A stretch of DNA of 37,769 bases from Bacteroidales bacterium (GTDB lineage: Bacteria; Bacteroidota; Bacteroidia; Bacteroidales; UBA12077): positions 1 to 37,769 of the forward strand of contig DAOUTQ010000012.1 of NCBI GenBank assembly GCA_030668615.1. The letters run 5' to 3'. Shown here one piece after another: positions 10,617 to 29,764 of this stretch. Position 1 is the first letter of the stretch. Each line of letters starts with the position of its first letter. The notes below the pieces were generated by a model. It was not told the DNA's origin. It did no database searches and was given only the letters and a program-made list of their open reading frames with translations. The position numbers were made by a program, and so were the translations under genes.

Positions 10617-13600
10617 ATGAGAAGGAAACTAATATTACCCTCTTGTATTGCTATTATATTCTTTTTTTTAACTAATTCGTTAATTTCACAAGACGAAACC
10701 GGCAGCCCATTTATAACAAATTATTACTCTAAAGACTACAAAGGTCATTCGCAAAACTGGTCAGCTATACAGGATGACAGAGGTTTTATGTATATCGCTA
10801 ACGGGAATGGTATTTTAGTTTATGATGGGAAAAATTGGGAAATGATTTCGGTCCCAAACAATGTTACAATACGTGATTTTGCTAAAGACAAAAACGGATT
10901 AATATATGCAGCTGGTATTAATGAACTTGGATACTTGCAACCAAATGATTTTGGGAAAATTGAATTTGTTTCAATTACAGATTCTTTAGGTTTAGGTAAT
11001 CAAGTTGGAATAATATCAAACATACAAATAATAAATAACGACATATATTTCAGAAGTCCAAATTATTTAATCCGTTTAAATGATAAAGGTTTTAAATATT
11101 GGGAATCTCAATCTCCTATAAATATAGATTTCATTTATAACAATGAAATTTATATTTATGAATCTGATAATGGTTTATATAAATTACAAAATGATTCCCT
11201 TATACTTATTCCAAATGGCAATAAATTAAAAGGGTTTGACTTTAATATTGCTCAACAAATTGAAAATAAAGTTCTGCTTACGGATAATCAGAAAGGATTA
11301 TTCTCATTTAAAATTACAAGCAATGGTGAACATGAATTTAAATATTTAGAATGTGAAGCTAATCATTATATAAAAAAATATTCTGCATACAGATCTGTTT
11401 TAAACAATAATGAATTAATAATTGGAACTAACAATGGAGGATGTTTATTTATAAATAAAAATGGGGAAGTTACAAGAAGTCTTAACAATGAACATGGATT
11501 ACAATCGAATAATGTTCATGGACTATTCATAGATAACAATGGTGATTTATGGTTGGCACTAAACAAAGGAAATGCAAAATTTGAAACATCTTTACCTTTA
11601 TCGTATTGGGATGAAACAAGTGGTTTAATTGGAATTGTTTTATCGACAATCAGGTTTAAGGAAACATTATATATTGCAACCCATCAGGGTGTATATTATT
11701 TAGAAAATAACAAGCCAGTTAAAATTGATGCTCCTATTACACAATGCTGGAATTTCATTATTCATAAAGATACTGTAAGAAATAAAGAAACTTTATTGAT
11801 TGGTGTTTCCGAAGGTATTTTTGAAATAAAAAATAAAAAACTTTATCCAGTTATTGAAAAAGGTGTTTCATTTACTTTTTACCAATCAAAACGTAATCCT
11901 AACTTAATTTACTTTGGATCAGGTGATAATATTGGTATTTTAGAGTATAAAAATGGTTTATTTGATTATAAAGGTATAATTCCCAACACAGGCATTAGTG
12001 TCAGAAGTATTGCTGAAGATAAAGATGGAAATATATGGGCAAGTACATTCCGAAATGGCGTTCTTAGAATAAAACCATCAGAAAATTTATTAAATTCTAA
12101 AGAAATAAAAGAATATGTTATTGAAGATGGATTCCCTTCTTTAAAAAACATCTTAATCTATAAATTTAAAAACGACCTGGTTTTTGGTACTGAGTACGGT
12201 ATTTATAAATACAACAATAATCAAGACAAATTTTACCCTGACGATACTTTCAAAGACATATTTAAAGGGAAACAAAAAGATATCTTTTCTTTTATTGAAG
12301 ATAAACAGGGTAATGTTTGGATATCACAATTAAATAAAATAAATGGATCAATTGGTATTCTTTCTAAAAGTCCTGACAACAGCTATTTCTGGAATTCAAC
12401 CCCTTTTAACAGAATACCTGAAATGATGGTGCTATCATTTCAGCTTGAAGAAAATGGAAGTGTATGGATTGGTGGATCGGAAGGATTGTTTAAGTTCGAT
12501 CCTAACATTAATAAAAACTACACTAAAAAAATACATGCTTATATTAGAAAAGTAACTATCAAATCGGATTCAACCATTTTTTTTGGCAACTATTTTAAGT
12601 ATCAAAATAACAAAAGAATATTTTCTAATGAGCAAAACGAACAGCTAAAATACAAATTAGAATATGAAAATAATTCATTGACCTTTTATTATGCAGCTCC
12701 TGATTTTAATGCCGAATTGGATATTGAATATCAGTATTGTTTGGTTGGATATAACGAAGAATGGTCGGATTGGTCGTTAAATACTAAAAAAGAATACACA
12801 AATTTATCTGAAGGCAACTATACATTTAAAGTTAAGGCAAAAAACATTTATAATCAGGTAAGTAAAGAAGCTTGCTATGAATTTTCAATTCTTCCACCAT
12901 GGTATAGATCAACAATTGCATATCTTGGATATATCATTTTAGGTATTACTTCAATTTTCATTATTGTTAGAATCAGTATTCGCAAATTAAAAAATCTAAA
13001 CAAAGAATTAGAAAGGCTTGTTGAGAAAAGGACCTTTGAAATAAATCAACAAAAGGAGGAAATTCTGGCACAAACCGATGAGCTTGAAAGAAAAAATACA
13101 GAACTGGAAAAACTGTCTATTGTTGCAAGGGAAACAGATAATGCAATTGCCATTGCAAGCCCAAATGGAATTATAGAATGGGTTAACGAAGGTTTTACAA
13201 GGCTTTATGGCTATACTTTGGATGATTTAGAGAAATCAGGTTATATAACAATGGATGATTTCAGTCTAGGTTCAACCATTAATGAAACTATAAATTATTG
13301 CTTAACAACCAAAAAAAGTAAAATATACGAATCTCTTAATCACTCAAAATCCGGAAAAAATATATGGGCACAAACCACCATTACTCCCATTTTAGACGAA
13401 AATGAAAATGTGATTAAATTGATAGCTATAGATTCCGATATCAGCAGGTTAAAACTTACTGAAATGGAGGTTATGCAACAAAAAGATGAAATTCAGGCAC
13501 AAAGAGATTTTGCACATCAGCAAAAAGAGTTTATCGAAGAACAGAATAAAGAGCTGGAAAAACATCGAAACAGACTTGAGCAATTAGTTAAAGACAGAAC

Positions 13601-14759
13601 TATTGATTTAGAAATTGCAAAAGAAAAAGCAGAACAATCTGATAAATTAAAATCTGCATTCCTTGCCAATATGTCGCATGAAATTCGTACACCGATGAAT
13701 GCCATTATTGGTTTCTCTAATTTACTAAACGACAATGATATTGTCAGAGAAGATAAAGATGAATTAGTTTCACATATTATTCATAATAGCAATACCTTAC
13801 TGCATTTGATTGATGATATTATTGATATTGCAAAAATTGAGGCAGGACAATTAGAAATTTACAAGAAGAATTGTCAAATTAATAAAATATTAAACGAATT
13901 GTTTGAAACTTTTTCTGAAAAGAAAAAACTACTTCATCATAAAGACCTTGATTTAGTTTTTAAGCCTGGTATTGAAAATTTAAATTTTACGACCTATACC
14001 GATCCAATAAGAATACAACAGATATTAACCAATCTTATTGACAACGCTCTAAAATTTACGGAAAGTGGGAAAATTGAAATTGGTTATACACTCAAGGAAG
14101 AAAATGAAAATTCATCTATACAATTTTTTGTAAAAGATTCAGGTATTGGATTATCAAAAGAACAACAGGGTCAGATATTTAGCCGTTTCACAAAATTCGA
14201 AAACGATAAAAAGAAACTATACAGAGGTGCAGGATTGGGTCTTGCTATATGTAAAAACATCTCGAATTTGCTTGGTGGAGATATTTGGGTAGAATCAGAA
14301 CTCAAGAAAGGATCTGCATTTTATTTTACAATTCCCTATTTAAAAGTATCTGAGAATAACATATTAAAAGAAAATCAAAAAGAAAATATTTATAATTGGG
14401 CAGGCAAGTCAATTTTAGTTGCTGAAGATGAAGAAAGTAACTTCCGTTTTCTGGAAATGGTGCTTTCAAAAACAAATGTGAATTTAATAAGAGCAAAAAA
14501 TGGTATTGAAGCAATTGAAAAATTCCAGAAAAATAACATAGATCTGATATTGATGGATATAAAAATGCCACATATGGATGGTCATGAAGCAACACGAAGA
14601 ATTAGAAAAATTGATAAAGATATTGTTATTATAGCCCAGACTGCTTTTGCTATGGAAAATGATGAAAGAATAAGTATTAAAGCAGGATGTAATGACTATA
14701 TTGCTAAACCAATAAGAAAGCCAAAGTTACTGGAACTAATAAATAAGTATTTATCTTGA
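10617..14759 (+). CDS. Hybrid histidine kinase: periplasmic propeller, Y_Y_Y, PAS, HK, receiver
   Basis: A 1380-residue sensor. Order: signal peptide (1-24); a divergent Reg_prop-type beta-propeller region (about 30-670) with blades such as GNIWASTFRNGVLRI; a Y_Y_Y domain (about 695-765, ending GNYTFKVKAKN); one membrane helix (about 765-790); a coiled coil; a PAS domain (about 834-945); a second coiled coil; a DHp domain with phospho-acceptor His1021 in [11 protein letters not shown]; a HATPase with N-box TNLIDNALKF and G2 box YRGAGLGL; and a C-terminal receiver (about 1262-1378) with acidic EDE and phospho-acceptor Asp1314. It should sense a periplasmic ligand, often glycan-derived in this family, and pass phosphate His to Asp. 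Unlike classical Bacteroides hybrid regulators there is no AraC-type HTH after the receiver. First gene of a three-kinase operon; the next start is 12 nt downstream. The sensor region is paralogous to that of the 22130 gene. Confidence 0.92.
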   Translation: MRRKLILPSCIAIIFFFLTNSLISQDETGSPFITNYYSKDYKGHSQNWSAIQDDRGFMYIANGNGILVYDGKNWEMISVPNNVTIRDFAKDKNGLIYAAGINELGYLQPNDFGKIEFVSITDSLGLGNQVGIISNIQIINNDIYFRSPNYLIRLNDKGFKYWESQSPINIDFIYNNEIYIYESDNGLYKLQNDSLILIPNGNKLKGFDFNIAQQIENKVLLTDNQKGLFSFKITSNGEHEFKYLECEANHYIKKYSAYRSVLNNNELIIGTNNGGCLFINKNGEVTRSLNNEHGLQSNNVHGLFIDNNGDLWLALNKGNAKFETSLPLSYWDETSGLIGIVLSTIRFKETLYIATHQGVYYLENNKPVKIDAPITQCWNFIIHKDTVRNKETLLIGVSEGIFEIKNKKLYPVIEKGVSFTFYQSKRNPNLIYFGSGDNIGILEYKNGLFDYKGIIPNTGISVRSIAEDKDGNIWASTFRNGVLRIKPSENLLNSKEIKEYVIEDGFPSLKNILIYKFKNDLVFGTEYGIYKYNNNQDKFYPDDTFKDIFKGKQKDIFSFIEDKQGNVWISQLNKINGSIGILSKSPDNSYFWNSTPFNRIPEMMVLSFQLEENGSVWIGGSEGLFKFDPNINKNYTKKIHAYIRKVTIKSDSTIFFGNYFKYQNNKRIFSNEQNEQLKYKLEYENNSLTFYYAAPDFNAELDIEYQYCLVGYNEEWSDWSLNTKKEYTNLSEGNYTFKVKAKNIYNQVSKEACYEFSILPPWYRSTIAYLGYIILGITSIFIIVRISIRKLKNLNKELERLVEKRTFEINQQKEEILAQTDELERKNTELEKLSIVARETDNAIAIASPNGIIEWVNEGFTRLYGYTLDDLEKSGYITMDDFSLGSTINETINYCLTTKKSKIYESLNHSKSGKNIWAQTTITPILDENENVIKLIAIDSDISRLKLTEMEVMQQKDEIQAQRDFAHQQKEFIEEQNKELEKHRNRLEQLVKDRTIDLEIAKEKAEQSDKLKSAFLANMSHEIRTPMNAIIGFSNLLNDNDIVREDKDELVSHIIHNSNTLLHLIDDIIDIAKIEAGQLEIYKKNCQINKILNELFETFSEKKKLLHHKDLDLVFKPGIENLNFTTYTDPIRIQQILTNLIDNALKFTESGKIEIGYTLKEENENSSIQFFVKDSGIGLSKEQQGQIFSRFTKFENDKKKLYRGAGLGLAICKNISNLLGGDIWVESELKKGSAFYFTIPYLKVSENNILKENQKENIYNWAGKSILVAEDEESNFRFLEMVLSKTNVNLIRAKNGIEAIEKFQKNNIDLILMDIKMPHMDGHEATRRIRKIDKDIVIIAQTAFAMENDERISIKAGCNDYIAKPIRKPKLLELINKYLS

Positions 14760-14771
14760 TTCCCTTGATGT

Positions 14772-17729
14772 ATGAAATTAAAATGTATCATATTATTCAT
14801 TATTTTGATTCCTGTAATCCCTGTTTTAAATGCACAGAACAGTTCAAAAGCAGATAGTTTGCTGCAAATAATAAACTCAAATGCAAATGATACCACAAAA
14901 GTAAATGCATATATAGATTTAACACAAATCCTGGGAAGAACACTCCCTGATTCTGCTGCCATTTTCGCAGAAAAAGGACTTGAGCTGGCAAAAATAAATA
15001 ATCACAAGTTAGGTGAAGCCAGTTTATATAAAAATATAGGAGCGATTAACTGGGGGCGTGGGAATCTTGATTTGGCAGAAGAATCATATAACAAAGCCTT
15101 GGTAATTTATATCAAACTATCTGAATCGGCAGATAAAAATGAAATATTAAAGAGTAAAAAAGGTATAGGTTTTTGTTACAACGGAATAGGCATTGTCTGG
15201 TTTCTGAGAGGCAATTACAGTAAGGCTCTAGAATACTTCCAACTATCGCTAACAAATCATGAAAATATTAATTATATACCAGGAATTGCAAAAGGTTATA
15301 ATAATATTGGTTTGGTACACTGGAAACAAATCAATTACGATCGGGCTTTAGAATATTTTCAAAAAGCATTAGATATATATAATGAATTAGAACATTCAAT
15401 AGACATAGGAGGATGCCTTAACAATATGGCTATTATTTATAAAAAACAAAAAAAATATTATGAAGCATTAAAATATTATAACAAATCTCTTGATATACTT
15501 TTAAAATTAGATGATAAGAAAGGAATCGCACTATGTTATAACAATATGGGAATGCTGTATGAGAAAATAAACAAATTAGACCTTGCATTAGACTATTATA
15601 AGAAAGCACTGGAATTAAAAATATTGGTTGACGACCAACAAGGAATATCTTCTGTATATAGCAATCTTGCAAGCGTAAATAATAAAATTGCAGAACAGAC
15701 TAATAATAGTGCTGAAAAAATAAAAAAATACAACCAGGCTATTAAATATGCTCATATAGGATTAAGCATCGCAAACTCTGTTGGTGGATTATATCAAGAA
15801 ATGGATTCATATGAAATCCTGTCCATATCTTATGAAGGACTTGGGCAATTTGATAAATCGCTGAAATATTTCAAATTAAAAACAGAGTTGAATGACAGTT
15901 TATTTAATCAAAGTAAAAATAAACAAATTGAAGAAGCTGAAGCTAAATTTCAAACGGCTCAGAAACAACAGGAAATAGACAAACAAAACACCAAATTTGA
16001 AAAACAAAAAATAGTTCGCAATTCATTAATTATTTTCTCAGTACTAATTATTCTTTTAATTATTCTTTTATATAGCAGATATTTATTTAAACAAAAAACA
16101 AATAAAATTTTAGAAGAAAAGAATAAAGAGCTTCAAAAGCTTTCAATAGTAGCAAGTGAAGCTGACAATGCCGTTACAATTTGTGATGCTGATGGAAATT
16201 TTGAATGGGTAAATGAAAGTTTATTCCGTTTATTTGGATATACGCTTGAAGAAAGAAAAAAAATACATGGAAGCAATGTTGTACAAGCGAGTTCAAATCC
16301 CAATATCAAAGATATTCTGAGTAAGGTTAAAGAAACAAAAAAGTCTATTGTATATGAATCATTAGTAGAAACTAGAAGTGGAGAAATAAAAAACTTACAA
16401 ACCACATTAACACCTTTTTTAGGCGAAAAAGGGGAAATTCAAAAATTAATTTTTGTTGATACTGATATTTCAAAACTAAAAAATGCAGAAAAAGAAATTT
16501 TACAAAAAAATGAAGAAATACAATCACAAAAAGATGAGCTAGAAAAACACCGAAACAAATTGGAACAAGAAGTTGACCAAAGAACTAAAGATTTAAAGAT
16601 TTCTAAAGAAAAAGCTGAAGAGTCAGATCGATTAAAGAGTTCATTTTTAACAAATATGTCACACGAGATTAGGACTCCTATGAATGCAATAATTGGTTTT
16701 TCAAATATGCTTGGTGAAGATGATCTCGAAACAGAAGTTAAGAATAATCTTATCTCAGAAATTTCATCTAATAGTTACTCATTACTTAATTTAATTGACA
16801 ATATACTGGAACTTGCACGTATCGATACGAATCAATTTAAAACTCAAAAAACTAAATTCGATCTTAATAATTCATTAAAAGATATTTATAATTCATTTTA
16901 CGATATCATTAAACTTAAAAAACTACAATTCAACTTAATAGTGCCTAAAAATACTATTAATGCGTTCTCTGACAGTTACCGAATTAAGCAAATTTTTAAT
17001 AATTTAATCAATAATGCAATTAAGTTTACTGAAAAAGGTAAAATTGAAATTGGGTTTACTACAGTAAGAAATAGCATTGAGTTTTTTGTTAAAGATACTG
17101 GAATTGGATTATCAGTAGATCAACAAAATCATATTTTTAAGCGTTTTACTAAAATCGAAGACGACAAAAAGAAACTTTACCGTGGAGCAGGATTAGGTCT
17201 GGCGATTAGTAAAAACATTGTTAATATACTTAATGGCGATATTTGGGTTGAATCCAGTCCAATGGAAGGTGCAGCATTCTATTTCACTATTCCTTTTCAC
17301 GATGAAGTTTCAGAAAAACAGACTGATATCAAAAAAACTCTTGTAATTGAGAAAGATCTGAACTGGTCTGGCAAAACCATTCTTATTGCTGAAGATGAAG
17401 AAAGTAACTACAGATTTCTTGAAATGCTTATAAAAAATACGAATGCCAAAATATTGAGAGCTGAAAACGGTAAAGAGGCAATCGAAAAGTGTAAAGATTA
17501 CAAAATAGATCTAATTTTAATGGATATAAAAATGCCTATAATGGATGGCTTAGAAGCAACGAAAATTATAAAACACACAAAACCCAAATTACCAATTATT
17601 TCTGTCTCCGCTTTTTCGTCAAAAGAAGATTCAGAATTAAGCATTAATGCAGGTTGCGAAGAACATCTTTCAAAACCGATCCAACGGCAAAAATTATTGT
17701 CAACAATAAAAAAATATTTCGAGAAGTAA
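14772..17729 (+). CDS. TPR-type hybrid histidine kinase with PAS and receiver
   Basis: A 985-residue protein. A signal peptide (1-21, ending LNAQ) precedes a TPR array (about 25-390) with units such as GYNNIGLVHWKQINYDRALEYF spaced at about 40 residues. One membrane helix follows (about 417-440), then a PAS domain (about 455-570), a coiled coil, DHp with His631, a HATPase with NNLINNAIKF and YRGAGLGL, and a receiver (about 867-984) with Asp918. In the receiver the usual switch Thr is Ser (SVSAF), which is tolerated in the family. The TPR region would lie in the periplasm, so the signal is probably a protein or peptide partner, which is inference. Second gene of the operon, 12 nt after the first kinase and 14 nt before the third. 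Its sensor is paralogous to that of the 19720 gene. Confidence 0.92.
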   Translation: MKLKCIILFIILIPVIPVLNAQNSSKADSLLQIINSNANDTTKVNAYIDLTQILGRTLPDSAAIFAEKGLELAKINNHKLGEASLYKNIGAINWGRGNLDLAEESYNKALVIYIKLSESADKNEILKSKKGIGFCYNGIGIVWFLRGNYSKALEYFQLSLTNHENINYIPGIAKGYNNIGLVHWKQINYDRALEYFQKALDIYNELEHSIDIGGCLNNMAIIYKKQKKYYEALKYYNKSLDILLKLDDKKGIALCYNNMGMLYEKINKLDLALDYYKKALELKILVDDQQGISSVYSNLASVNNKIAEQTNNSAEKIKKYNQAIKYAHIGLSIANSVGGLYQEMDSYEILSISYEGLGQFDKSLKYFKLKTELNDSLFNQSKNKQIEEAEAKFQTAQKQQEIDKQNTKFEKQKIVRNSLIIFSVLIILLIILLYSRYLFKQKTNKILEEKNKELQKLSIVASEADNAVTICDADGNFEWVNESLFRLFGYTLEERKKIHGSNVVQASSNPNIKDILSKVKETKKSIVYESLVETRSGEIKNLQTTLTPFLGEKGEIQKLIFVDTDISKLKNAEKEILQKNEEIQSQKDELEKHRNKLEQEVDQRTKDLKISKEKAEESDRLKSSFLTNMSHEIRTPMNAIIGFSNMLGEDDLETEVKNNLISEISSNSYSLLNLIDNILELARIDTNQFKTQKTKFDLNNSLKDIYNSFYDIIKLKKLQFNLIVPKNTINAFSDSYRIKQIFNNLINNAIKFTEKGKIEIGFTTVRNSIEFFVKDTGIGLSVDQQNHIFKRFTKIEDDKKKLYRGAGLGLAISKNIVNILNGDIWVESSPMEGAAFYFTIPFHDEVSEKQTDIKKTLVIEKDLNWSGKTILIAEDEESNYRFLEMLIKNTNAKILRAENGKEAIEKCKDYKIDLILMDIKMPIMDGLEATKIIKHTKPKLPIISVSAFSSKEDSELSINAGCEEHLSKPIQRQKLLSTIKKYFEK

Positions 17730-17743
17730 TTATATAAGGAATC

Positions 17744-19618
17744 ATGAACAAACTCTATAAACTTATAAACAATATTGTAACCGGAGGATTGTCAGGTGGT
17801 TTTGAGTCGGAACAATTACGAAAAACCATTATAATTAATTTATTTTCGGTTGTTGGAATTACATTTATGGTTTTTTATGGAGTTAAAACAATACTCCAGT
17901 TCGATGTCTTTTATGCTATTATAGTATTCTCTTGTGCATTTATGACTTCCATAGCATTTTTCTATTTGCGTGTAACAAAAAACTTTATAGCAACTGGTTA
18001 TTTTCTGGTTATAATGCTTACTGCATTGCTTCATTTCTTTTTAATTAATGGTGGCGAAGAAAATACTGCATTTCTTTGGTTTTACGTATATCCAGTAATT
18101 AGCTTGTTTATACTGGGATTAAAACGAGGTGTATTCTTTATAGTTATTCTTTTAACAAGTACACTTTTTCTTTTTTATACAGATCCCGATTTTATGGTTG
18201 ACTACGGTATTAACTTGAAATCAAGATTCATATCTACTTTTATTGCCGTTTCAGCCATTGCAATAATTTTTGAGGTTGTTAGAAAAAAAACTTACAATGC
18301 ATTAATTGAAACGAATGATAAAAAAACATATTACCTAAACAAGGTAATGGATCAGCAAAAGGAAATTGTTACTCAATCCGAAAAACTAAAAAATGCCAAT
18401 AAAGAACTAGAACAACACAGAAATCAATTGGAAAGTCTTGTAAAAGAAAGAACAAAAGAATTAGAAATTGCTAAAGAAAAAGCTGAAGAATCGGATCGTT
18501 TAAAATCTGCATTTCTAGCTAATATGTCACACGAGATTAGAACTCCAATGAATGCTATAATTGGATTCTCAAATCTATTAATTGATCCTGAGGTAGAAGA
18601 CTCTCTCAAGGGGGAAATGGCTATTCATATTACTCAGAATACAAATTCTTTATTAAAACTTATTGAAGATATAATTAGCATTTCAAAAATTGAATCCGGA
18701 CAACTTAAGGCAAAAATCAATAAGGTAGATATACATAAAATTCTAAAGGATGTTTTTGAAGATTTTGAGGATTTAAAAGAAAGTTTAAAAGAGAGTTCTG
18801 CAAAATTAATTCTTGATAATGAATTGAATGAAACTGTTTTAGAATTAAATACTGATGAAGAACATTTAAAGAACATTTTAACAAATTTGTTGAATAATGC
18901 TTTTAAATTTACCGAAAGAGGTGAAATCCATTGTGGGTACAAGCTGTTTGATACTTTCAGAGACCCTCATATTCAATTTTATGTAAAAGACACTGGGATT
19001 GGCCTTACCGAAGAACAACAAACCCGAATTTTTAATAGGTTTACAAAAGCTGAAATTTCCAGAAAAAAATTATACAGAGGTGCGGGTTTGGGATTAAGTA
19101 TTTGCAAAAATCTTGTGGAAAAATTAGGAGGAAGAATCTGGGTTGAATCGGATTTAAACATTGGAGCAGCATTCTATTTTAATATTCCATATAATACATC
19201 AGAAATTTACGAAAATGAAATTTCACACACAAAGAAAAAAAACAATAACTATTATTGGGATAAAAAATCAATTCTAATTGCCGATGACGAGCTTTCAAAT
19301 TACCGTCATTTAAATATTGCACTGTCAAAAACAGGAGCAAAACTATATCATGCAAGAAACGGATTAGAAGCTGTAGAATTAGTTGAAAACAACAAAATAG
19401 ATCTCATTTTAATGTATATTAAAATGCCAATAATGAATGGGCTGGAAGCAGCCAGAAAAATAAAAAGTATGGGTAAAAATATTCCAATTATTGCGCAAAC
19501 AGCCTTTACTCTGGAATATGACGAAAAAAAGAGCCTGAATTCAGGTTGTGACGCATTTCTATCAAAACCAATAAGAAAAACTCAATTATTAGCAATACTG
19601 GATTCTTATCTTACTTAA
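17744..19618 (+). CDS. Membrane-sensor hybrid histidine kinase with degenerate receiver (Asp to Tyr)
   Basis: A 624-residue protein. The sensor is a membrane region of about six helices (residues about 25-180) without a large periplasmic domain. A coiled coil (about 190-245) leads to DHp with His263, then a HATPase with N-box [10 protein letters not shown] and YRGAGLGL. The C-terminal receiver (about 506-622) keeps the acidic pair (ADDE), the switch Thr (AQTAF) and the Lys (SKP). At the phospho-acceptor position it has Tyr558 (TAT at 19415-19417) in LILMYIKMP, where all sister receivers have LILMDIKMP. The receiver therefore should not accept phosphate by the normal chemistry and may be regulatory, decoying or decayed; the kinase core looks intact. 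Last gene of the first kinase operon. A single-base sequencing error cannot be excluded. Confidence 0.92.
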
Positions 19619-19687: not shown

Positions 19688-19719
19688 GCTAATAATTATA
19701 ATACATGACCTTTACTTTG

Positions 19720-21999
19720 ATGAAAAATATTATAATAAAAATTTGGTTATTATTGATCCTTTCATGTTTTACTTACAATAATCTTTTTGCTCAAAAATCA
19801 AAAACAGACAGCCTCATTTTCGAACTTCAGAAAGCTAAAGAAGATTCAACTAAGGTAAATTTTTTATATAATATATCGAACGAACTAATTGATCAAAACA
19901 CTGACTCAGCACTGAATTATGCTAGTAGCGGTGTTGAATTAGCAAAGAAAATAGATTTTAAAAAAGGGTTAGCAAATTGTTATTGTGCTCTAGGAAAAAT
20001 CTATAAAGAACAAGGAGAATATAAAATTGCCATGGAATATAACCAAAAATCGTTAAACCTTTATAGCGAAATGGATAATAAAAGGGGAGTGATAGATGCA
20101 TTAAGTAATATTGGTGCAATAAATTTATATTCCGATAATTATAACCTGTCAATTAAAAATTACCAAAATGCCCTTGAATTATCCAAAGCAATTAAAGATA
20201 GTGTAAGAATAAGCCAAGCATATCATGGTATTGGATGGGTCTTTTATCATGAAGCAAATTATCCCATGGCTCTGGAATTTTATCAAAAGAGTCTTAATAT
20301 TAAAGAAAAATTAAATAACAAATATGAAATTTGTAAAACACTGAACAACATAGGAGTAGTTCATCTATACCAAAAAAATTATGAGCAAGCCATTGAATAC
20401 TATCAAAATTCCTTAAAACTTGCATTAGAAATAAAACATAGTAGTTATACAGCAAACTGTTATAACAATCTTGCAATAATTTATTATGAACAAAATAATT
20501 GGATACTTGCAGAAAAATTCTACTTAAAAGCGCTTGACATTTATCTTAAACAATATTATAAAATCGGGATTAGTGCTTCATATAGCAATTTGGGATTACT
20601 TTACACGAAAACAGGAGATTACAAAAAAGCAAAAGAATTTCATAATAAAGCATTAAATATAAGACTAAAATTAGGGAACAAATATGATATTTCATCAATT
20701 CATAACAATATAGCTAAGTTACATAATCAAATTGCTGAATCAAATAAGCAAATTGAGCTTCAGAAAAATAATTACCTAATAGCAATACAGCATGCTGAAA
20801 AGGCTGCTTTAATTTCCAGAGAAATAGGTGCGCTTATAAAAGAAAATGGTGCTTATTTCGAACTTATTACAGCATATAAAGGCTTGAAAGATTACAAAAA
20901 AGCATTTAAATACCAGGAATTATACATTTCAACCAAAGACAGCTTGTTTAACACTGAAAAAATGAAAGAAGTTGAGAGTATGGAAGCAAAATATCAGGCT
21001 GAAAAAAAACAATTTGAAATAGAGAATCTGGAAAAAGAAAACGAGCTTAAAACAGTCAAGCTGGAAAAAATGCATATTAGGCAAATTTTGTCTTATCTTA
21101 TTATTTTTATATCTGTTTTTATAATTATTTCATTAATTACTATCAGATATAAGTTACGAAAAAAAAACACTACCATTTTTGAACAAAACGAAGAAATTCT
21201 TGCGCAAAATGATGAACTTGAAACACATCGTAATCATTTGGAAAAGATTGTAGATGAAAGAACTTCTGAATTAAGACTCGCCAAAGAAAAAGCAGAAGAA
21301 AGCGATCGTTTAAAATCTTCATTTCTGGCCAACATGTCACACGAGATTCGTACTCCAATGAACGCAATTGTGGGATTTTCAAGCTTAATTACTGACCCTG
21401 AAATACCGATAAAACAACGAAACGAAATTTCAAATCAAATAAATCAAAATAGTGATAATCTTTTGCATTTAATAGATGATATTATTGACCTTTCTAAAAT
21501 TGAATCAAATCAGCTAATCATTAAAAAAATTGAATTCCCGGTTAATGAAATTATAAATAAAATATTGCCCGTATATCAGGAAAAAAAGCTTAAACTTAAA
21601 AAAGAACATATTAAATGCATAGTGAAAAATAATATTGATAATATAATTATATATACAGACCCTTGCAGATTACAACAAATTTTAACAAACCTGATTGATA
21701 ATGCATTCAAATTTACTGAAGAAGGAAAAATTGAAATTGGATATAAACTAATAAAAAATAAAAAAAATAGCTCAATTATATTTTCTGTAAAAGATACAGG
21801 TATTGGAATGTCAGAAGAACAGCAGGAATATATTTTTAAACGGTTTAGTAAAATAGAAGACGATAAAAAGAAATTATACAGAGGCGCGGGATTAGGATTA
21901 GCTATAAGTAAAAACTTAGTAGAATTACTGGGTGGTAAAATTTGGGTTGAATCAAAAAAGGGAGAAGGATCTACATTTTATTTTACAATTCACACTTAA
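19720..21999 (+). CDS. TPR-type sensor histidine kinase without receiver
   Basis: From the ATG at 19720 the protein has 759 residues; an in-frame ATG at 19705 would add MTFTL. The 19720 start gives a normal signal peptide (MKNIIIKIWLLLILSCF, cleaved near FAQ) and a more natural leader length. A periplasmic TPR array (about 30-400, e.g. IEYYQNSLKLALEI and KEFHNKALNIRLKL) is followed by one membrane helix (about 456-478), a coiled coil, DHp with His541 and a HATPase with TNLIDNAFKF and YRGAGLGL. The protein ends at the close of the HATPase (STFYFTIHT). There is no PAS and no receiver, and the 130 nt downstream hold no receiver remnant. It must phosphorylate a separate receiver, possibly one of its neighbours (inference). 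It is a single-gene unit with its own promoter. Confidence 0.9.
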   Translation: MKNIIIKIWLLLILSCFTYNNLFAQKSKTDSLIFELQKAKEDSTKVNFLYNISNELIDQNTDSALNYASSGVELAKKIDFKKGLANCYCALGKIYKEQGEYKIAMEYNQKSLNLYSEMDNKRGVIDALSNIGAINLYSDNYNLSIKNYQNALELSKAIKDSVRISQAYHGIGWVFYHEANYPMALEFYQKSLNIKEKLNNKYEICKTLNNIGVVHLYQKNYEQAIEYYQNSLKLALEIKHSSYTANCYNNLAIIYYEQNNWILAEKFYLKALDIYLKQYYKIGISASYSNLGLLYTKTGDYKKAKEFHNKALNIRLKLGNKYDISSIHNNIAKLHNQIAESNKQIELQKNNYLIAIQHAEKAALISREIGALIKENGAYFELITAYKGLKDYKKAFKYQELYISTKDSLFNTEKMKEVESMEAKYQAEKKQFEIENLEKENELKTVKLEKMHIRQILSYLIIFISVFIIISLITIRYKLRKKNTTIFEQNEEILAQNDELETHRNHLEKIVDERTSELRLAKEKAEESDRLKSSFLANMSHEIRTPMNAIVGFSSLITDPEIPIKQRNEISNQINQNSDNLLHLIDDIIDLSKIESNQLIIKKIEFPVNEIINKILPVYQEKKLKLKKEHIKCIVKNNIDNIIIYTDPCRLQQILTNLIDNAFKFTEEGKIEIGYKLIKNKKNSSIIFSVKDTGIGMSEEQQEYIFKRFSKIEDDKKKLYRGAGLGLAISKNLVELLGGKIWVESKKGEGSTFYFTIHT

Positions 22000-22129: not shown

Positions 22130-25100
22130 ATGAGAGCAGTTGTAATATATTTAATTCTTTTTTTTGGTTTTATTTATAGCTGCTTCTCACAATATTATTC
22201 CGAAACAGGAAATCCGATAATTCAAAATTATTCTCCTAAAGATTATAATGCTGCTTCTCAAAACTGGTCTGTAGTTCAGGACAAACTGGGTATAATGTAT
22301 TTTGGCAACAATTACGGAGTATTAATATATGACGGTAATTCATGGGAGACAGTTCCGGTAAGTAATAATACGGTTGTACGTTCTTTGGCAATCGATACTT
22401 CAGACAGGGTTTTTGTTGGTGCAAAGGGAGATTTTGGTTATTTACAAAGTGATATTTCGGGGAAACTCAATTTTGTATCATTATTGGGCCTGATAGAGAT
22501 AAATGATCGTGATTTTTTAGATGTCTGGAATATTTTTATCATCGAAAATGAGGTTTACTTTCAGGCCGAATCTAAAATTTTTAAATTCAAAAACAACCAT
22601 ATTCAGGCAATAAATATTAAAAATCTAACAAGTAAGTCATTTTGTGTTGATAATAAAATCTATTTACAGATAGCTGATAAAGGACTGGCGCTATTAAAAA
22701 ATGATTCCGCAGTAATAATATCGGGCGGCAAATTTTTTATTAACAAAAGAGTGCAGTCAATTGTATCATATAGTGATAATAAATTATTAGTCGGAACTTC
22801 TAACGAGCTATACGTGTGCGCTGTAAAGATTGTAAACAATATTCCAATCTTCAATCTCAAACCGAAAAAACTAAAGACCGAAGCAGAAAAAATCCTACAG
22901 GTCAATCAATTATATCATATCTTAAGATTAAACAAAAATAAATATTGTTTAGGCACAAAAGGAAAAGGTGCAATAATAATTGATGATTCGGGTAATATTA
23001 TTCAAAACATTAATACAAAAAATGGTCTTATAGCAGATGAGGTTTACCACTCCTATCTTGATAAACATAACAATCTATGGTTAGAATTAGGATTTGGAAT
23101 AAGTAATGTTAAAATCGAAAGTCCGATAACACATTTAGATGAAACTTCAGGTATAAGAGGTACAGTTTTATCTGTTATCCGATTTCAGGGTACACTATAT
23201 ATTGGAACAACAACCGGAGTTTTTTATTTAACAAATGAAGGGTTTATTAAAATCAGTGGAATATACAACCAGGCCTGGAACCTTAATATAATTAAAGATC
23301 AGAATAAACCTCATAAAGAAAGTCTATTTGTTTCTTCAGCCGATGGCGTTTTTCTTATTAAGAATAAACAAGCTATAAAAATTGTTGACAAACAAGCATT
23401 TGCACTTCTCAAAAGCTCAATTTATCTTAACAATATATATATAGCAAACAACTCAAAACTAATTTCAGGAAGTTTAAATAATGAGATAAATATTAAAGTT
23501 AATAAAGAAATAAATGTAAATGCTGAAATAAGAAACATTGTTGAAGATGAAAAGGGAAATGTGTGGTTAGGAACAAATTCCTCAGGAATAATTTTTATTA
23601 AATCTGATTTTTTTAATAGTGAAGTACATGATAATTACAAAAAATTTATTACTCACTATGATACTTCATACGGATTACCTTCATTAAACTGGAACATTCT
23701 TTATTTACACAAAACCCGGATTTTAGTTGCAACCAAAAAAGGAATTTACGTTTTTAACAATGAAAAAAACACTTTTGAGCCACACATTGCCAATAATGTT
23801 TTTAAAAGTAAGGACCGATGGATTTACACAATGCAGATTAACCATGAAAACATATGGTTTGATTCAGATAAAGGTAGAGGAATTCTTTTAAAACAAGATG
23901 ATGGAAGCTATCTATTAGATGAATCAGCGTTTCAGACAGTTAATACCATGTTTGGAGATTATGGAAATAAAAATTCTATATTCATTGATAGTACCGTAAC
24001 CTGGTTTGGTTTACACAAAGGAATCCTCAGGTTTGATAAAAAAATTCCACCCCAAAATAATCAAGAGTTCTTTGTATTATTAAAAAATATTTTCGTTCAC
24101 TCCGATTCTGTAATATTCAGTTGTTATTTTAACAATGAGAATGCATTAAGCTATACTAATTCAGTTCCATTGTCTTTTAAAAACAATAATTTAACATTTA
24201 AATATTCTGCTCCTTATTTTTGTTTCGAAGAAAATACAACATTTAGCTTTTTCCTTGAAGGTTTTGATAAACAATGGTCTGAATGGTCCTTGAAATCAGA
24301 AAAAGAATATACAAATCTGCCCAAAGGTGAATATATTTTTAATGTAAAAGCAAAGAACATTTTCAATATTGAAAGTGAAACTTTTCAATATAATTTCGAG
24401 ATTTCAGCACCCTGGTATAATAATACTTTAGCCTACTTAATTTATTCATTATTAGCTTTTTTACTTATATTAATAATAGTAAAACTTAACATAAGAAGAT
24501 TAAAAGCAGAAAAAATAAGTCTTGAGAAAATTATTAAAGAAAGAACCCGGGAAATAAGCAAGCAAAAAGACGACATTGAAATTAAAAACATTGAGTTGGA
24601 ACAACAAAAAGAAGAAATTCTTTCGCAAAACGAAGAAATAATTGTACAAAAGGAGGAGCTAGAGGATCATCGAAATAATCTGGAAAAGCTTGTTTTGGAG
24701 AGAACAAGAGACTTAGAAATCGCTAAAGAAAAAGCAGAAGAATCTGACAGGCTAAAATCTTCATTTTTAGCAAACATGTCGCATGAAATAAGAACGCCTA
24801 TGAATGCAATTATTGGGTTCTCTGAGCTGATAAACGATCCAGAATTATCAACAGAACAAAAAGATGAACTTTCAAGCCTTATATACAATAATTGTGACTC
24901 TCTTTTAAGATTAATTGATGATATTATTGATCTTTCAAAAATTGAATCTAAACAGCTCGAATTGAAAAATACAAATTGTTTTGTTTCCGAAGCGTTAAAT
25001 GATTTGTTCAAAGTTTTTAATGAAAGGAAACTGCAATTAAATAAGGGTCATATAGAATTAACAATAAATATACCTGAAGGATATAAAAATATAACGATTC

Positions 25101-25474
25101 ATACAGATTGTTTAAGGTTAAAACAAGTTTTATCAAATTTAACCAACAATGCACTCAAATTTACCGAAGCCGGGTCGATAGAATTTGGCTATTCACTGAT
25201 TAATAGTAATGATAATCCAAAATTAAAATTCTATGTAAAAGATACAGGAATAGGTATGTCAGACCAGCAACAAAAAGAAATTTTTAATCGGTTTAGTAAA
25301 ATAGAGACCAGTAAAAAGAAACTATACCGTGGTGCCGGACTGGGTCTTGCTATTAGTAAAAACTTAGTCGAGATGCTTGGTGGGCAATTATTGGTCGATT
25401 CTAAAAAAGATACGGGCTCAACCTTTTATTTTTCCTTACCTTTTACTAAATTAGCTGAGAGTGAAAAACTATAA
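22130..25474 (+). CDS. Propeller/Y_Y_Y sensor histidine kinase, probably the N-terminal part of a frameshifted hybrid kinase
   Basis: A 1114-residue protein. Signal peptide (1-20), divergent propeller region (about 25-640), Y_Y_Y domain (about 690-755, ending GEYIFNVKAKN), membrane helix (about 763-787), a long coiled coil without PAS, DHp with His885, and a HATPase with SNLTNNALKF and YRGAGLGL. The sensor is a close paralogue of that of the 10617 gene: both mature N-termini read ETG(S/N)P, then KDY, then SQNWS. The frame ends in TAA at 25472-25474. A receiver frame continues 11 nt later in the -1 frame. One extra A in the AAAAA run at 25464-25468 would fuse the two into a 1248-residue hybrid whose linker (EKTIKKSS) matches the linker of the 25904 kinase (EKPVIKKSTS). 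So this may be a recently split hybrid kinase or a sequence error. Confidence 0.88.
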   Translation: MRAVVIYLILFFGFIYSCFSQYYSETGNPIIQNYSPKDYNAASQNWSVVQDKLGIMYFGNNYGVLIYDGNSWETVPVSNNTVVRSLAIDTSDRVFVGAKGDFGYLQSDISGKLNFVSLLGLIEINDRDFLDVWNIFIIENEVYFQAESKIFKFKNNHIQAINIKNLTSKSFCVDNKIYLQIADKGLALLKNDSAVIISGGKFFINKRVQSIVSYSDNKLLVGTSNELYVCAVKIVNNIPIFNLKPKKLKTEAEKILQVNQLYHILRLNKNKYCLGTKGKGAIIIDDSGNIIQNINTKNGLIADEVYHSYLDKHNNLWLELGFGISNVKIESPITHLDETSGIRGTVLSVIRFQGTLYIGTTTGVFYLTNEGFIKISGIYNQAWNLNIIKDQNKPHKESLFVSSADGVFLIKNKQAIKIVDKQAFALLKSSIYLNNIYIANNSKLISGSLNNEINIKVNKEINVNAEIRNIVEDEKGNVWLGTNSSGIIFIKSDFFNSEVHDNYKKFITHYDTSYGLPSLNWNILYLHKTRILVATKKGIYVFNNEKNTFEPHIANNVFKSKDRWIYTMQINHENIWFDSDKGRGILLKQDDGSYLLDESAFQTVNTMFGDYGNKNSIFIDSTVTWFGLHKGILRFDKKIPPQNNQEFFVLLKNIFVHSDSVIFSCYFNNENALSYTNSVPLSFKNNNLTFKYSAPYFCFEENTTFSFFLEGFDKQWSEWSLKSEKEYTNLPKGEYIFNVKAKNIFNIESETFQYNFEISAPWYNNTLAYLIYSLLAFLLILIIVKLNIRRLKAEKISLEKIIKERTREISKQKDDIEIKNIELEQQKEEILSQNEEIIVQKEELEDHRNNLEKLVLERTRDLEIAKEKAEESDRLKSSFLANMSHEIRTPMNAIIGFSELINDPELSTEQKDELSSLIYNNCDSLLRLIDDIIDLSKIESKQLELKNTNCFVSEALNDLFKVFNERKLQLNKGHIELTINIPEGYKNITIHTDCLRLKQVLSNLTNNALKFTEAGSIEFGYSLINSNDNPKLKFYVKDTGIGMSDQQQKEIFNRFSKIETSKKKLYRGAGLGLAISKNLVEMLGGQLLVDSKKDTGSTFYFSLPFTKLAESEKL

Positions 25475-25485
25475 AAAAAAGTTCC

Positions 25486-25875
25486 ATGATAACAAATACA
25501 TATAAATGGAGTAATAAAACCATTCTAATTGCTGAAGATGAAGACAGTAATTACCGTTACCTCGAAATGGTTTTAAACAAGACAAAAGCAAAAATTTTAT
25601 GGGCCAAAGACGGTCTGGAGGCTATTGATTTATGTAAACAGTATGAGCCAGATTTAATTCTTATGGATATAAAAATGCCAAACATGGATGGTCTTGAAGC
25701 CACAAGAATGATAAAGAAAACTCATCCCGAAATTCCGATAATTGCTCAAACAGCTTATGCTATGGAAAATGATGAGCATTTAAGTCTTGAAGCCGGATGT
25801 AATTCATACTTATCCAAGCCTATAAAAGCAAATAAACTCTTAGAAGTGTTGTCAACATTTTTAATTGGTGAATAG
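25486..25875 (+). CDS. Response regulator receiver domain, stand-alone or split from the preceding kinase
   Basis: A 129-residue single receiver domain with acidic EDE (ILIAEDEDSNYR), phospho-acceptor Asp61 in LILMDIKMP, switch Thr in AQTAY and Lys in SKPI. It has no output domain. It can be read as a single-domain response regulator that takes phosphate from the kinase ending 11 nt upstream. However, its frame is open back to 25465 and the upstream residues (TIKKSS) match the kinase-receiver linker of the 25904 hybrid, so the ATG at 25486 may be an internal Met of a former hybrid kinase. Either way all key residues are present and the domain should be functional if translated. The next kinase starts 28 nt downstream. 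Confidence 0.85.
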   Translation: MITNTYKWSNKTILIAEDEDSNYRYLEMVLNKTKAKILWAKDGLEAIDLCKQYEPDLILMDIKMPNMDGLEATRMIKKTHPEIPIIAQTAYAMENDEHLSLEAGCNSYLSKPIKANKLLEVLSTFLIGE

Positions 25876-25903: not shown

Positions 25904-28900
25904 ATGGATAATACTGATTTAAAAAATAAAGCATTTCGATTAACTTTACTTATATTCATTCTTAACATAGTCTCTGTATCACTATTTTCCCAAAACTCTA
26001 TTGAATATAACTTTGAAAAGTTATCAATTAAAGACGGACTTTCTCATAACAATGTATACACAATTATTCAGGATAAATCAGGATATTTATGGTTTGGTAC
26101 TCAGGATGGATTAAATAAATACGATGGTTACAAATTTAATATTTACAGGCATGAAATAGATAATCCCAATTCTCTTACAACAGGTAATTTCGGGAAAATG
26201 ATTCAAGACTCTTTGGGAATATTTTGGTTTGGAACATTTGGAGGTGGAATTGACAGGTTTGATCCTAATACAAACACATTTACAAACTTTTCAAATAAAC
26301 CGAGTGATCCGAATAGCCTTAGCAATAATCAGATTTTATTTGTATTTGAAGATAACCAAAACAATATTTGGGTCGGAACGTCCAACGGGGGATTAAACAA
26401 ATTCAATAAAAAAGAAGAGAATTTCAAACGTTTTCACCCTGAATCTGATAATCCTAAAAGTTTCAGCGATTTGCGTGCAAAATGTGTTTGTGAAACAAGT
26501 AACAAAGAATTATGGTTTGGGACAGGAAATGGATTAAATAAATACAATCCATCCAACGAAACCTTTAAAATTTACACACACGATCCAAAAAACATTAACA
26601 GTATTAGTTCAAATAGTATTCAGCATTTATTTGCTGATGAAGACGGAATAATATGGATTGCTTATAGAGAAACTGGTATCAGTAAATTTGATTCAAAAAC
26701 CGAAACTTTTACACATTACAAACATGATCCGAACAATCAATCCAGTTTAAGTGATAATAATTGCGAATTTATTACAAAAGATTCATATGGATATTTTTGG
26801 ATAGGAACATATCAGGAAGGCTTAAACAAGTTTGATCCTGAAACCGGCAAATTCATGAATTTTATGCATGATCCTAATAATATAACAAGTATTAGCCATA
26901 ACAGAATTGAATATATTTTCGAAGACAATTCGAGAAATTTATGGATAGCAACACGTGGAGGCGGTATTAATAAACTGGATCTTAAACCACGTAAATTTAG
27001 AAATATTGTTCACAATCCTGAAGTTAAAAATACACTGCCACATCCCAGTGTTATGGCAATTGATATAGATGGAAACGAAAATCTGTGGATCGGAACTGAT
27101 GGAGGTGGTATTTCTAAGTATGATCCAAAAACAAAAGTTTTTACTCATTTCCAAAACATTCCTTCAAATAATAATTCTTTGAGTGTTAATAGAGTATGGG
27201 CCATTTTAGTCGATCGAGAGGGTATTATTTGGGCAGGAACATACAGAGGTGGGTTAAACAGAATTGAATATAAAAACGGTAAATATAACTTTACAAGATA
27301 TCTCGGCAAACGAGGAGATAACTCAAGTCTTAGTAATAATCAAATTAACACTATTATTGAAGATAAGAACGGAATAATCTGGATTGCCACAGCTAATGGA
27401 TTGAATAAACTTATTAAAGCTGATAAACCTGAGGATTATACGTTTAAACATTATTTCCAAAACAAAACTGATTCTTTAATTTTCATTGATAACTACATTA
27501 GTAACTTATATCTGGATAGTCAGGACAGACTTTGGATTGGATCGTATGCTGGTGGTTTGTTTCAGTTTTTACCTGAAAAGGAAGAGTTTATTAATTACTC
27601 ACCAACAGAATTTGACTCTACAAAATTTAAAAAAAACCTTCATGTATTAATAATTTTTGAAGATCGTAACAAAAATCTATTGCTTGGAACAGAATCAAGC
27701 GGAATCATAATATTTGACACGGAAAAAGAAACTTTTTCAATGCATCCAAAAAATGATAATCTGTTAAGTAATATGATTATTGGAATTACAGAAGATGATA
27801 TGGGTAATTTATGGATAAGTTCATCAAGAGGTTTATCAAAATTCTCACCTTGGAATAATAAATTAATTAATTACACCTATAATGATGGACTTGAAAGTAG
27901 TGGTTTCAATAGAAATGCTATCCTGAAATGTAATAATGGCAATTTGTACTTTGGAAGCAACTCTGCCTTAACATATTTTAATCCTTTGGAAGTAAGCAGC
28001 AATCCTTTTATTCCTCAAGTTGTTATTACTGATTTTAGAATTCTGAACAAGTCAGACTGGGTAAATAATTTGTTGCCTTTTGAAAAAGTTCAGTTTGAAA
28101 ACAAACCTATTGAACTTACAAAAAAAGATTACTTTTTTATTATTGAATTTGCTTCACTTGATTTTACCAGCACACAGCAGAATCAGTATGAATATATGCT
28201 TGAAGGATTTGACGAAGACTGGATTGATGCAAATAATAATAGAACAGCAACTTACACCAATATTGATCCTGGATTATATACATTTAAAGTAAAAGGAAGC
28301 AATAATGATAAAGTTTGGAATGAAAATCCGGTCGAACTTGAAATAAAAGTAATACCACCATTCTATAAAACAAAAGGATTTATAATTTTCATAGTATTTC
28401 TGGGTATTATCTTCATATTTACATTCATAAAACTGAGAACAAAGAATTTAATAAAAGATAAAAGAAATCTTGAAGAAAAAGTTATAGAAAGAACCAATGA
28501 AATTAGCCTTCAAAAAGAAGAATTAAAAACTCAGGCAGAAAATCTTGAAAAAACTAATGAGCAACTTGAACATCAACAGGAAAAGCTTGAAAATTTAGTT
28601 CATGAGCGGACAAGCGACCTTGAAATTGCTAAAAATAAAGCAGAAGAATCTGATCGGTTAAAATCTGCATTTCTGGCAAACATGTCGCACGAAATTAGAA
28701 CTCCGATGAATGCCATTATTGGTTTTTCGAATTTAATAAATGATCAGGATATAGAAAAAGAATATAAAGCAGAACTGGCTAGTTTAATTAAGAAAAATAG
28801 TAACTCATTATTAAATCTGATCGATGATATTATTGATATATCAAAAATAGAAGCTGGCCAATTGGATATAAGCGAAAAAGATTGCGCTATTAATCAGGTG

Positions 28901-29764
28901 CTTAATGACCTATTAATAGAATTTGAAGATTATATTATTTCAAACGACAAGTTAACATTAAAAGTTAGCGAAGAACTGTTATTTAATCAGCTTATTATAA
29001 AAACAGATCCATATCGATTACAACAGGTTTTGAAAAATTTATTAAGTAATGCCATAAAATTTACAGAAGTTGGAATTATTGAATTTGGTTATCGGATAAA
29101 TAAAGATATGATTCAATTCTTTGTTAAAGATACCGGAATTGGAATAACACCAGAACAACAGAATCAGATATTTTCAAGATTTAATAGAATTGAAGATACT
29201 AAGAAAAAAATTTACAGAGGCGCTGGTCTGGGTTTAACGATTACTAAGAATATTGTAGAAATGATGGGTGGGAAAATTTGGTTGGAATCTAAATTAGATA
29301 GGGGTTCCGTATTCAACTTTGAGATACCGTATAGACCCGTAGAACTAACTTCAAAAGAAAAGCCGGTAATTAAAAAAAGTACTTCGAAATATAAATGGGA
29401 TAATAAAACAATACTAATTGCTGAGGATGAAGAAAGTAATTTCAAATTTCTTAATATGATCATTCGTAAAACTTCAGCTGAATTATTATGGGCAAAAACC
29501 GGCCAGCAAGCCATAGATATTTGCATGGGCAATTATAAAGTTGATTTAATATTAATGGATATTAAAATGCCTGAAATGGATGGTCTGGAAGCTATTCGTA
29601 AGATTAGAGAGCATCAGCGAAAGATTCCAATTATAGTTCAATCAGCTTATTCAATGCCTGAAGACCAAAATCTTAGTTTTGAAGCAGGCGCAAATGATTT
29701 TATTTCTAAACCTATTGGCACCGAAAAATTACTTAATACAATTGATAAACATCTAATAGGATAG
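25904..29764 (+). CDS. Hybrid histidine kinase with 14 Reg_prop repeats, Y_Y_Y, HK and receiver
   Basis: The ATG at 25904 gives 1286 residues and a clean signal peptide (ending VSLFSQ). An in-frame TTG at 25865 would overlap the receiver gene by 11 nt and is less likely. The periplasmic part has about 14 Reg_prop units, e.g. GYLWFGTQDGLNKYDG and GIIWAGTYRGGLNRIEY, enough for two seven-bladed propellers. A Y_Y_Y domain (about 745-815), a membrane helix (about 824-846), a coiled coil, DHp with His929, a HATPase with KNLLSNAIKF and YRGAGLGL, and a receiver (about 1164-1283) with Asp1219 follow. The sensor is the classical type of Bacteroides hybrid two-component systems, where such propellers respond to glycan fragments. 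The usual AraC-type HTH is missing and the protein stops at the end of the receiver. No PAS domain is present. Confidence 0.92.
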   Translation: MDNTDLKNKAFRLTLLIFILNIVSVSLFSQNSIEYNFEKLSIKDGLSHNNVYTIIQDKSGYLWFGTQDGLNKYDGYKFNIYRHEIDNPNSLTTGNFGKMIQDSLGIFWFGTFGGGIDRFDPNTNTFTNFSNKPSDPNSLSNNQILFVFEDNQNNIWVGTSNGGLNKFNKKEENFKRFHPESDNPKSFSDLRAKCVCETSNKELWFGTGNGLNKYNPSNETFKIYTHDPKNINSISSNSIQHLFADEDGIIWIAYRETGISKFDSKTETFTHYKHDPNNQSSLSDNNCEFITKDSYGYFWIGTYQEGLNKFDPETGKFMNFMHDPNNITSISHNRIEYIFEDNSRNLWIATRGGGINKLDLKPRKFRNIVHNPEVKNTLPHPSVMAIDIDGNENLWIGTDGGGISKYDPKTKVFTHFQNIPSNNNSLSVNRVWAILVDREGIIWAGTYRGGLNRIEYKNGKYNFTRYLGKRGDNSSLSNNQINTIIEDKNGIIWIATANGLNKLIKADKPEDYTFKHYFQNKTDSLIFIDNYISNLYLDSQDRLWIGSYAGGLFQFLPEKEEFINYSPTEFDSTKFKKNLHVLIIFEDRNKNLLLGTESSGIIIFDTEKETFSMHPKNDNLLSNMIIGITEDDMGNLWISSSRGLSKFSPWNNKLINYTYNDGLESSGFNRNAILKCNNGNLYFGSNSALTYFNPLEVSSNPFIPQVVITDFRILNKSDWVNNLLPFEKVQFENKPIELTKKDYFFIIEFASLDFTSTQQNQYEYMLEGFDEDWIDANNNRTATYTNIDPGLYTFKVKGSNNDKVWNENPVELEIKVIPPFYKTKGFIIFIVFLGIIFIFTFIKLRTKNLIKDKRNLEEKVIERTNEISLQKEELKTQAENLEKTNEQLEHQQEKLENLVHERTSDLEIAKNKAEESDRLKSAFLANMSHEIRTPMNAIIGFSNLINDQDIEKEYKAELASLIKKNSNSLLNLIDDIIDISKIEAGQLDISEKDCAINQVLNDLLIEFEDYIISNDKLTLKVSEELLFNQLIIKTDPYRLQQVLKNLLSNAIKFTEVGIIEFGYRINKDMIQFFVKDTGIGITPEQQNQIFSRFNRIEDTKKKIYRGAGLGLTITKNIVEMMGGKIWLESKLDRGSVFNFEIPYRPVELTSKEKPVIKKSTSKYKWDNKTILIAEDEESNFKFLNMIIRKTSAELLWAKTGQQAIDICMGNYKVDLILMDIKMPEMDGLEAIRKIREHQRKIPIIVQSAYSMPEDQNLSFEAGANDFISKPIGTEKLLNTIDKHLIG

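Follow-up and report, generated by a model that had tools for sequence, protein, structure and literature searches.

Background

Fission and fusion of genes in two-component systems are reportedly treated in the work of Cock and Whitworth from 2007. Some response regulators, among them DivK and Spo0F, consist of a single domain. For myxobacteria, the excerpts of PMC4603909 used here describe changes between the T,R and TR states by gene fusion or fission, name small indels and frameshifts as causes of domain changes, and cite earlier work on gene fusions and fissions. The GacS network of PMC8175716, again as excerpted, consists of related hybrid kinases whose receivers are able to replace one another, and the discussion in that paper cites frequent fusion and fission of hybrid kinases and a Xanthomonas fusion by loss of a stop codon. 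GacS-network receivers remain attached in that account; at the locus described here, one receiver is a separate gene. In Caulobacter, the single-domain response regulator MrrA receives phosphate from at least six kinases (PMC5964349, in excerpt). The excerpted parts of these three papers and of PMC4558063 hold no report of the present locus, which is not proof of its absence from the literature.

The locus lies in a stretch of 37,769 nucleotides (the window) from a draft genome, G000, that comprises 239 contigs and is 88% complete. A preliminary description had read two adjoining genes in it as one hybrid kinase that was broken recently, was split by a sequencing error or is read by slippage. 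Origin from a hybrid kinase is supported by our comparisons; the recent break, the error and the slippage are not. Very probably these are two genes, which arose when an old split of a hybrid kinase freed a single-domain response regulator that would take phosphate in trans and that was probably re-fused later in one relative, G013.

Results

Junction and surrounding kinase cluster

The upstream gene (22130..25474, + strand) encodes a sensor histidine kinase of 1114 aa with an N-terminal propeller (Reg_prop), Y_Y_Y, HisKA and HATPase_c by Pfam and a coiled coil recognised by eye; Pfam found no receiver domain in this open reading frame. Its final codons are GAA AAA CTA TAA, and the stop (25472..25474, +), which recurs in the same frame in the sister genome G017, is followed by a spacer of 11 nt (25475..25485, +). 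The stand-alone receiver (25486..25875, +; 129 aa) then starts with ATG in the -1 frame relative to the kinase. These positions and the frame agree with the preliminary description, as do a receiver frame that is open back to 25465 and the linker EKPVIKKSTS-KYKWDNKTIL in the hybrid kinase at 25904. Response_reg is the sole Pfam domain of the receiver (102 bits, residues 13-122), which is by its anatomy a single-domain response regulator: a receiver alone, with its own start and stop and no output domain. Against NCBIfam, no row for the two proteins was above the cut-off among the best 25 of 66 and the best 25 of 98. By sequence, the best match among solved structures is DivK (1m5t, E 1.4e-22), and Spo0F matches too; the likeness to these receiver-only proteins is that of the receiver family in general, with 115 distinct sequences matching at E<=1e-8.

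Two hybrid kinases at the front of the same tandem cluster each combine PAS, HisKA, HATPase_c and a receiver, the first with propeller and Y_Y_Y (10617..14759, +) and the second with TPR (14772..17729, +). They are followed by a hybrid kinase with a MASE6 sensor (17744..19618, +). At the site of the phospho-acceptor Asp its receiver carries Tyr (LILMYIKMP); the five related receivers compared (G017, G013, G016, G012 and G019) all keep Asp, and the change may mean that the domain recently became a pseudo-receiver in this species, or that the sequence holds an error. Next comes a second kinase without a receiver (REC-less), with a TPR sensor (19705..21999, +), which is a candidate further phosphate donor. 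Behind the stand-alone receiver lies a Reg_prop/Y_Y_Y hybrid kinase with its own receiver (25904..29764, +). When the five receivers of the window are compared by eye, four have a similar first helix; this makes it plausible, without proving it, that donors are shared. One HPt protein was found in the draft genome G000 (on C233, at 5945-6319 of locus L144, a 125-aa open frame scoring 25.5 bits against a Pfam cut-off of 24.6). The open reading frame beside or after it looks STAS-like by eye.

Distribution and origin of the stand-alone receiver

We searched for the receiver in 20 genomes of the genus, all contig-level and six of them less than 80% complete, and inspected the loci around the best hits of 19. 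Among the matches listed, the receiver is a stand-alone gene in 15 of the 20 genomes, in 16 copies (two in G011); the reading frames in these 15 genomes span 131-143 aa from stop to stop. It is fused in one genome, G013, within a frame of 1256 residues. For G005, G006, G009 and G014 the best match falls outside the receiver group in our trees; the absences from G005 and G009 mean little, since both genomes are less than 80% complete, while G006 is 98% and G014 93% complete. Five genomes of the sister genus, searched at family level, gave a single receiver match at E<=1e-40 (G023, 54%, E 1.4e-41), which is weaker than the weakest member of the group (2.5e-53).

In a midpoint-rooted tree of 55 receivers, the 16 stand-alone copies and the fused receiver of G013 form a group of 17 (support 99/96) that is surrounded by receivers of hybrid kinases, and the same group was recovered when G009 was added (56 rows, midpoint root, SH-aLRT 96). 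Because it belongs to a group of 17 sequences from 16 of the 20 genomes, the receiver at 25486 is, on this distribution, not a chance open reading frame. Many genomes of the genus also have other stand-alone receivers, about 126 aa long and 53-57% identical to this one (for example G000:C32:144-506); the one in G009 falls together with the G014 receiver and apart from the group of 17.

A Trp just before the receiver domain is kept in all 55 rows of the tree. A receiver that sits among those of hybrid kinases and retains this Trp fits a product of fission, and the origin from a hybrid kinase is supported further by a remnant of a kinase tail before the receiver in G012 (score 102, against a maximum of 41 in 100 shuffles). 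Weaker, short tail matches precede the receiver in G004 (42, shuffle maximum 32) and G008 (38, shuffle maximum 34); no tail remnant was found there in G010 (23 against 33) or G007 (25 against 36). The split of the hybrid kinase would be old and most likely predates the divergence of the species sampled from the genus. The freed receiver would have its own ATG within what was once the linker between kinase and receiver, immediately ahead of the conserved Trp. That ATG lies 12 codons before the motif ILIAEDE in 12 of the 16 stand-alone copies, the one at 25486 included, and 16 codons before it in the other four.

The surroundings are conserved on the downstream side as well. In 13 of the 15 genomes with a stand-alone receiver, the next gene has the sensor type of the hybrid at 25904, although a contig end cuts it in G015, G002 and G004; no gene of this type was seen downstream of the receiver in G007 or G008. 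On the upstream side, a kinase that has no receiver ends 10-34 nt before the start of 11 of the 16 copies; in G017 this kinase is truncated. For the other five copies the distance to the preceding gene is 109-331 nt; G007, G008, G010 and G012 have a hybrid kinase in that place, and G004 has a REC-less kinase that a single TAA interrupts.

Kinases without a receiver

In a midpoint-rooted tree of 53 kinase cores, kinase 22130 falls into a group of 13 (96/98) made up of 11 REC-less kinases and two hybrids (from G013 and G005). In the window, the sensors most similar to those of these 11 are of the propeller, TPR or MASE6 type; G000 itself has two members of the group, 19705 and 22130. Kinases that adjoin the 11 closely spaced receiver copies have propeller, TPR or Reg_prop-like sensors and come from two core clades: in G001, G003 and G019 the cores of the REC-less kinases fall into another group (100/97), with weakly Reg_prop-like sensors (about 27%), so kinase replacement is part of the history along with a split. 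A scan of genome contigs with the kinase returned 10 loci, all distant (23-44% identity in the best segment, at most 32% in eight of the 10), and these were set aside.

These kinases are mosaics. The sensor of kinase 22130 is closest to that of G018 and its core to that of G013. Compared with G018 it shows 71% identity over the sensor and 61% over the core; the corresponding values for G013 are 33% and 81%, with a sharp change in identity between residues 750 and 800 (50-residue bins). Contig G011:C79 carries a TPR, a MASE6 and a propeller kinase, all REC-less, whose core DNA is 82-86% identical over about 780-840 nt, and two stand-alone receivers lie among them; this pattern would reflect sensor exchange or gene conversion. 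The mosaic kinases and the core DNA shared in G011 suggest that related cores have swapped sensors in the neighbourhood of a receiver that stayed constant.

We propose that the REC-less kinases (22130 and probably 19705), and perhaps the neighbouring hybrids, would autophosphorylate on His and pass the phosphate in trans to receiver 25486, the partners being suggested by their neighbourhood. Since the receiver has no output domain, it would have to act by protein contact or hand the phosphate on, and it could be a shared node for several sensors. The presence of two REC-less kinases in the cluster and their differing sensors suggest a role as a phosphorylation hub, like that of MrrA. The widest form of this idea, in which the locus works as a plug-in system for sensors around the freed receiver as a constant hub, with REC-less kinases of varied sensors coming and going and in one case re-fusing to it, is tentative, and we think it somewhat more likely wrong than right. 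The same weight attaches to that part of it in which the receiver stays, as does the downstream hybrid kinase in most genomes.

A narrower form of the best explanation would have the receiver serve its one adjacent kinase only, as a plain split pair. The short distance between the receiver and a kinase lacking one, in the 11 copies described above, speaks for such a pair, which we nevertheless consider unlikely. In G000 two REC-less kinases of one core group precede the receiver, and across the genus the adjacent kinases are drawn from two core groups. Moreover, four genomes (G007, G010, G012 and G017) keep the receiver and have no REC-less kinase among their matches at E<=1e-70, all 27 of which carry a receiver of their own; in G008 this holds for six of seven matches. 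With no REC-less partner in view, the donors there would be hybrids or more distant kinases, or the role of the receiver would have changed; this result speaks against a simple split pair. Upstream REC-less kinases with several sensor types, and receivers that outlast truncated or replaced kinases, are established by these comparisons at the level of sequence.

The fused form in G013

The fused form is known from one genome, G013, and its meaning depends on where that genome falls. We computed a midpoint-rooted tree of rpoB and gyrA for 17 of the 20 genomes (G002, G004 and G009 were left out; G000 is represented by rpoB alone, and G008 and G012 by gyrA alone). G017, which is also the source of the nearest relative of receiver 25486 among the matches listed (91% identical), is the nearest genome to G000 (99/95), and G013 is sister to this pair (100/99). 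Stand-alone receivers are present in both basal groups of the tree. In the core tree, the G013 kinase is nested next to that of G000 (100/100) within the mostly REC-less group, and the G013 receiver groups with those of G000 and G017 in a tree of receiver DNA (87/91) and falls inside a group of 14 in the 56-row receiver tree (SH-aLRT 90).

From its position in the species tree and the nesting of its core in a mostly REC-less group, we read G013 as re-fused. Most likely the two genes were joined later across what had been the spacer between them, so that the former start codon survives as an internal Met; G013 indeed has Met where the other copies have their start codon. The opposite polarity, which takes fusion as seen in G013 for the ancestral state and has the receiver released once or several times with no re-fusion, is a good deal less credible. 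It draws on an AU test of the receiver DNA (16 stand-alone rows against 10), in which one split that keeps the 16 stand-alone copies as one group, with G013 outside, was not rejected (p = 0.079). Against it, the species tree sets G013 among lineages with split genes and would demand several separate splits at an identical start codon, the receiver trees place it inside the stand-alone copies, and its core lies next to that of G000.

Selection on the receiver

Ratios of dN/dS for the receiver were 0.030-0.085 in 10 of 13 pairs, the other three being saturated; two of the 10 usable pairs involve the fused receiver of G013, and six have dS >1. Between G000 and G017, dS is 0.74 and dN/dS 0.06. Judged by these ratios, the receiver is under purifying selection. 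The acidic residues of EDE, the phospho-acceptor Asp, the Thr and the Lys are present in all 16 stand-alone copies. Sequence comparison thus establishes a two-gene arrangement with a conserved start, purifying selection and intact phosphorylation residues.

These results bear on the possibility that the receiver is a functionless relic of a dying hybrid kinase. Such an origin would explain why the adjacent kinase is truncated, interrupted or replaced by another gene in G017, G004, G012, G008, G007 and G010. At G017:C72, for instance, the kinase is reduced to a sensor fragment and a 148-residue HATPase open reading frame, most of the sensor and HisKA having been lost; the receiver behind this decayed kinase is intact. 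A relic would hardly retain a dN/dS of 0.03-0.09 in the 10 pairs, its catalytic residues in every copy and the standing of a separate gene in 15 of 20 genomes, and we regard this explanation as very improbable.

Recent break, assembly error and frameshifting

The preliminary description had favoured a single-base event at the junction, placed at an A5 run at 25464-25468, which is indeed present. We also find an A8 run at 25473-25480, absent from that description. It begins within the TAA stop, and slippage there would thus be unable to remove the stop; the A5 run, upstream, is the sole run that could matter for slippage. Of the two outcomes that the description had named as refuting such an event, one was found: relatives have the two-gene arrangement with a conserved start codon, and G017 also has the stop in common. 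The other, a complete lack of fused homologues, was not, since G013 is fused.

The two homopolymer runs and the fused homologue are what a very recent break in this strain, or a one-base assembly error, has in its favour. However, the TAA, the 11-nt gap and the frame are identical in G000 and G017, and at a dS of 0.74 such an identical junction is explained neither by an error in a single assembly nor by a break in one strain. The low dN/dS between these two genomes, the separate gene in 15 of 20 genomes and the start codon conserved in 16 of 16 copies argue the same way. In addition, the stretch that separates a conserved GCT codon from the ATG varies in length: 29 nt for G000 and G017, 35 for G011, 36 for G015 and 33 for the fused gene of G013. 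By this spacing (29 versus 33 nt) G000 differs from the fused form by more than one base. An explanation by recent break or error has next to nothing left to recommend it.

For -1 frameshifting, the usual slippery site is a heptamer motif. Relative to the kinase, the frame of the receiver is offset by 0 in two, by 1 in four and by 2 in five of the 11 close copies, so no shared recoding step could join the reading frames; a conserved slippery site with a constant offset, the mark of programmed frameshifting, was not found. Translation of the two frames into one hybrid protein by programmed frameshifting or slippage is extremely improbable, since the A5 run, kept in G017, stands against an A8 run that sits behind the first base of the stop, codons (GAA AAA) that do not match the usual -1 heptamer, and a G017 junction that was kept though the kinase had lost HisKA. 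On the sequences compared, the junction is very unlikely to reflect a recent break, an error in sequencing or slippage.

Discussion

Treating the locus as two genes removes a false 'broken gene'. Related genomes show one receiver attached, detached, placed beside kinases with different sensors, and left behind after decay of the kinase; they offer a natural series for asking how signalling specificity survives the release of a receiver and whether detached receivers become hubs. If the plug-in hub were true, one split would have opened up a private receiver as an input node common to the entire kinase cluster.

Separation and fusion of receivers and transmitters are already known, and the locus belongs to these known kinds. 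Its new part would be the exchange of kinases around a constant, freed receiver with a putative hub role. As in the myxobacterial case, to the extent that the excerpts of PMC4603909 set it out, a receiver is linked in one species and separate in another. The present locus differs from that case: most of the species sampled from the genus retain a separate receiver whose start codon is fixed, the adjoining kinases differ from one another, and one lineage was probably re-fused. With MrrA, as it appears in the excerpts of PMC5964349, the locus has a stand-alone receiver in common and, by proposal, the function of a hub; that of MrrA was established biochemically, while the one suggested here comes from sequence context, and the likeness proposed is one of role.
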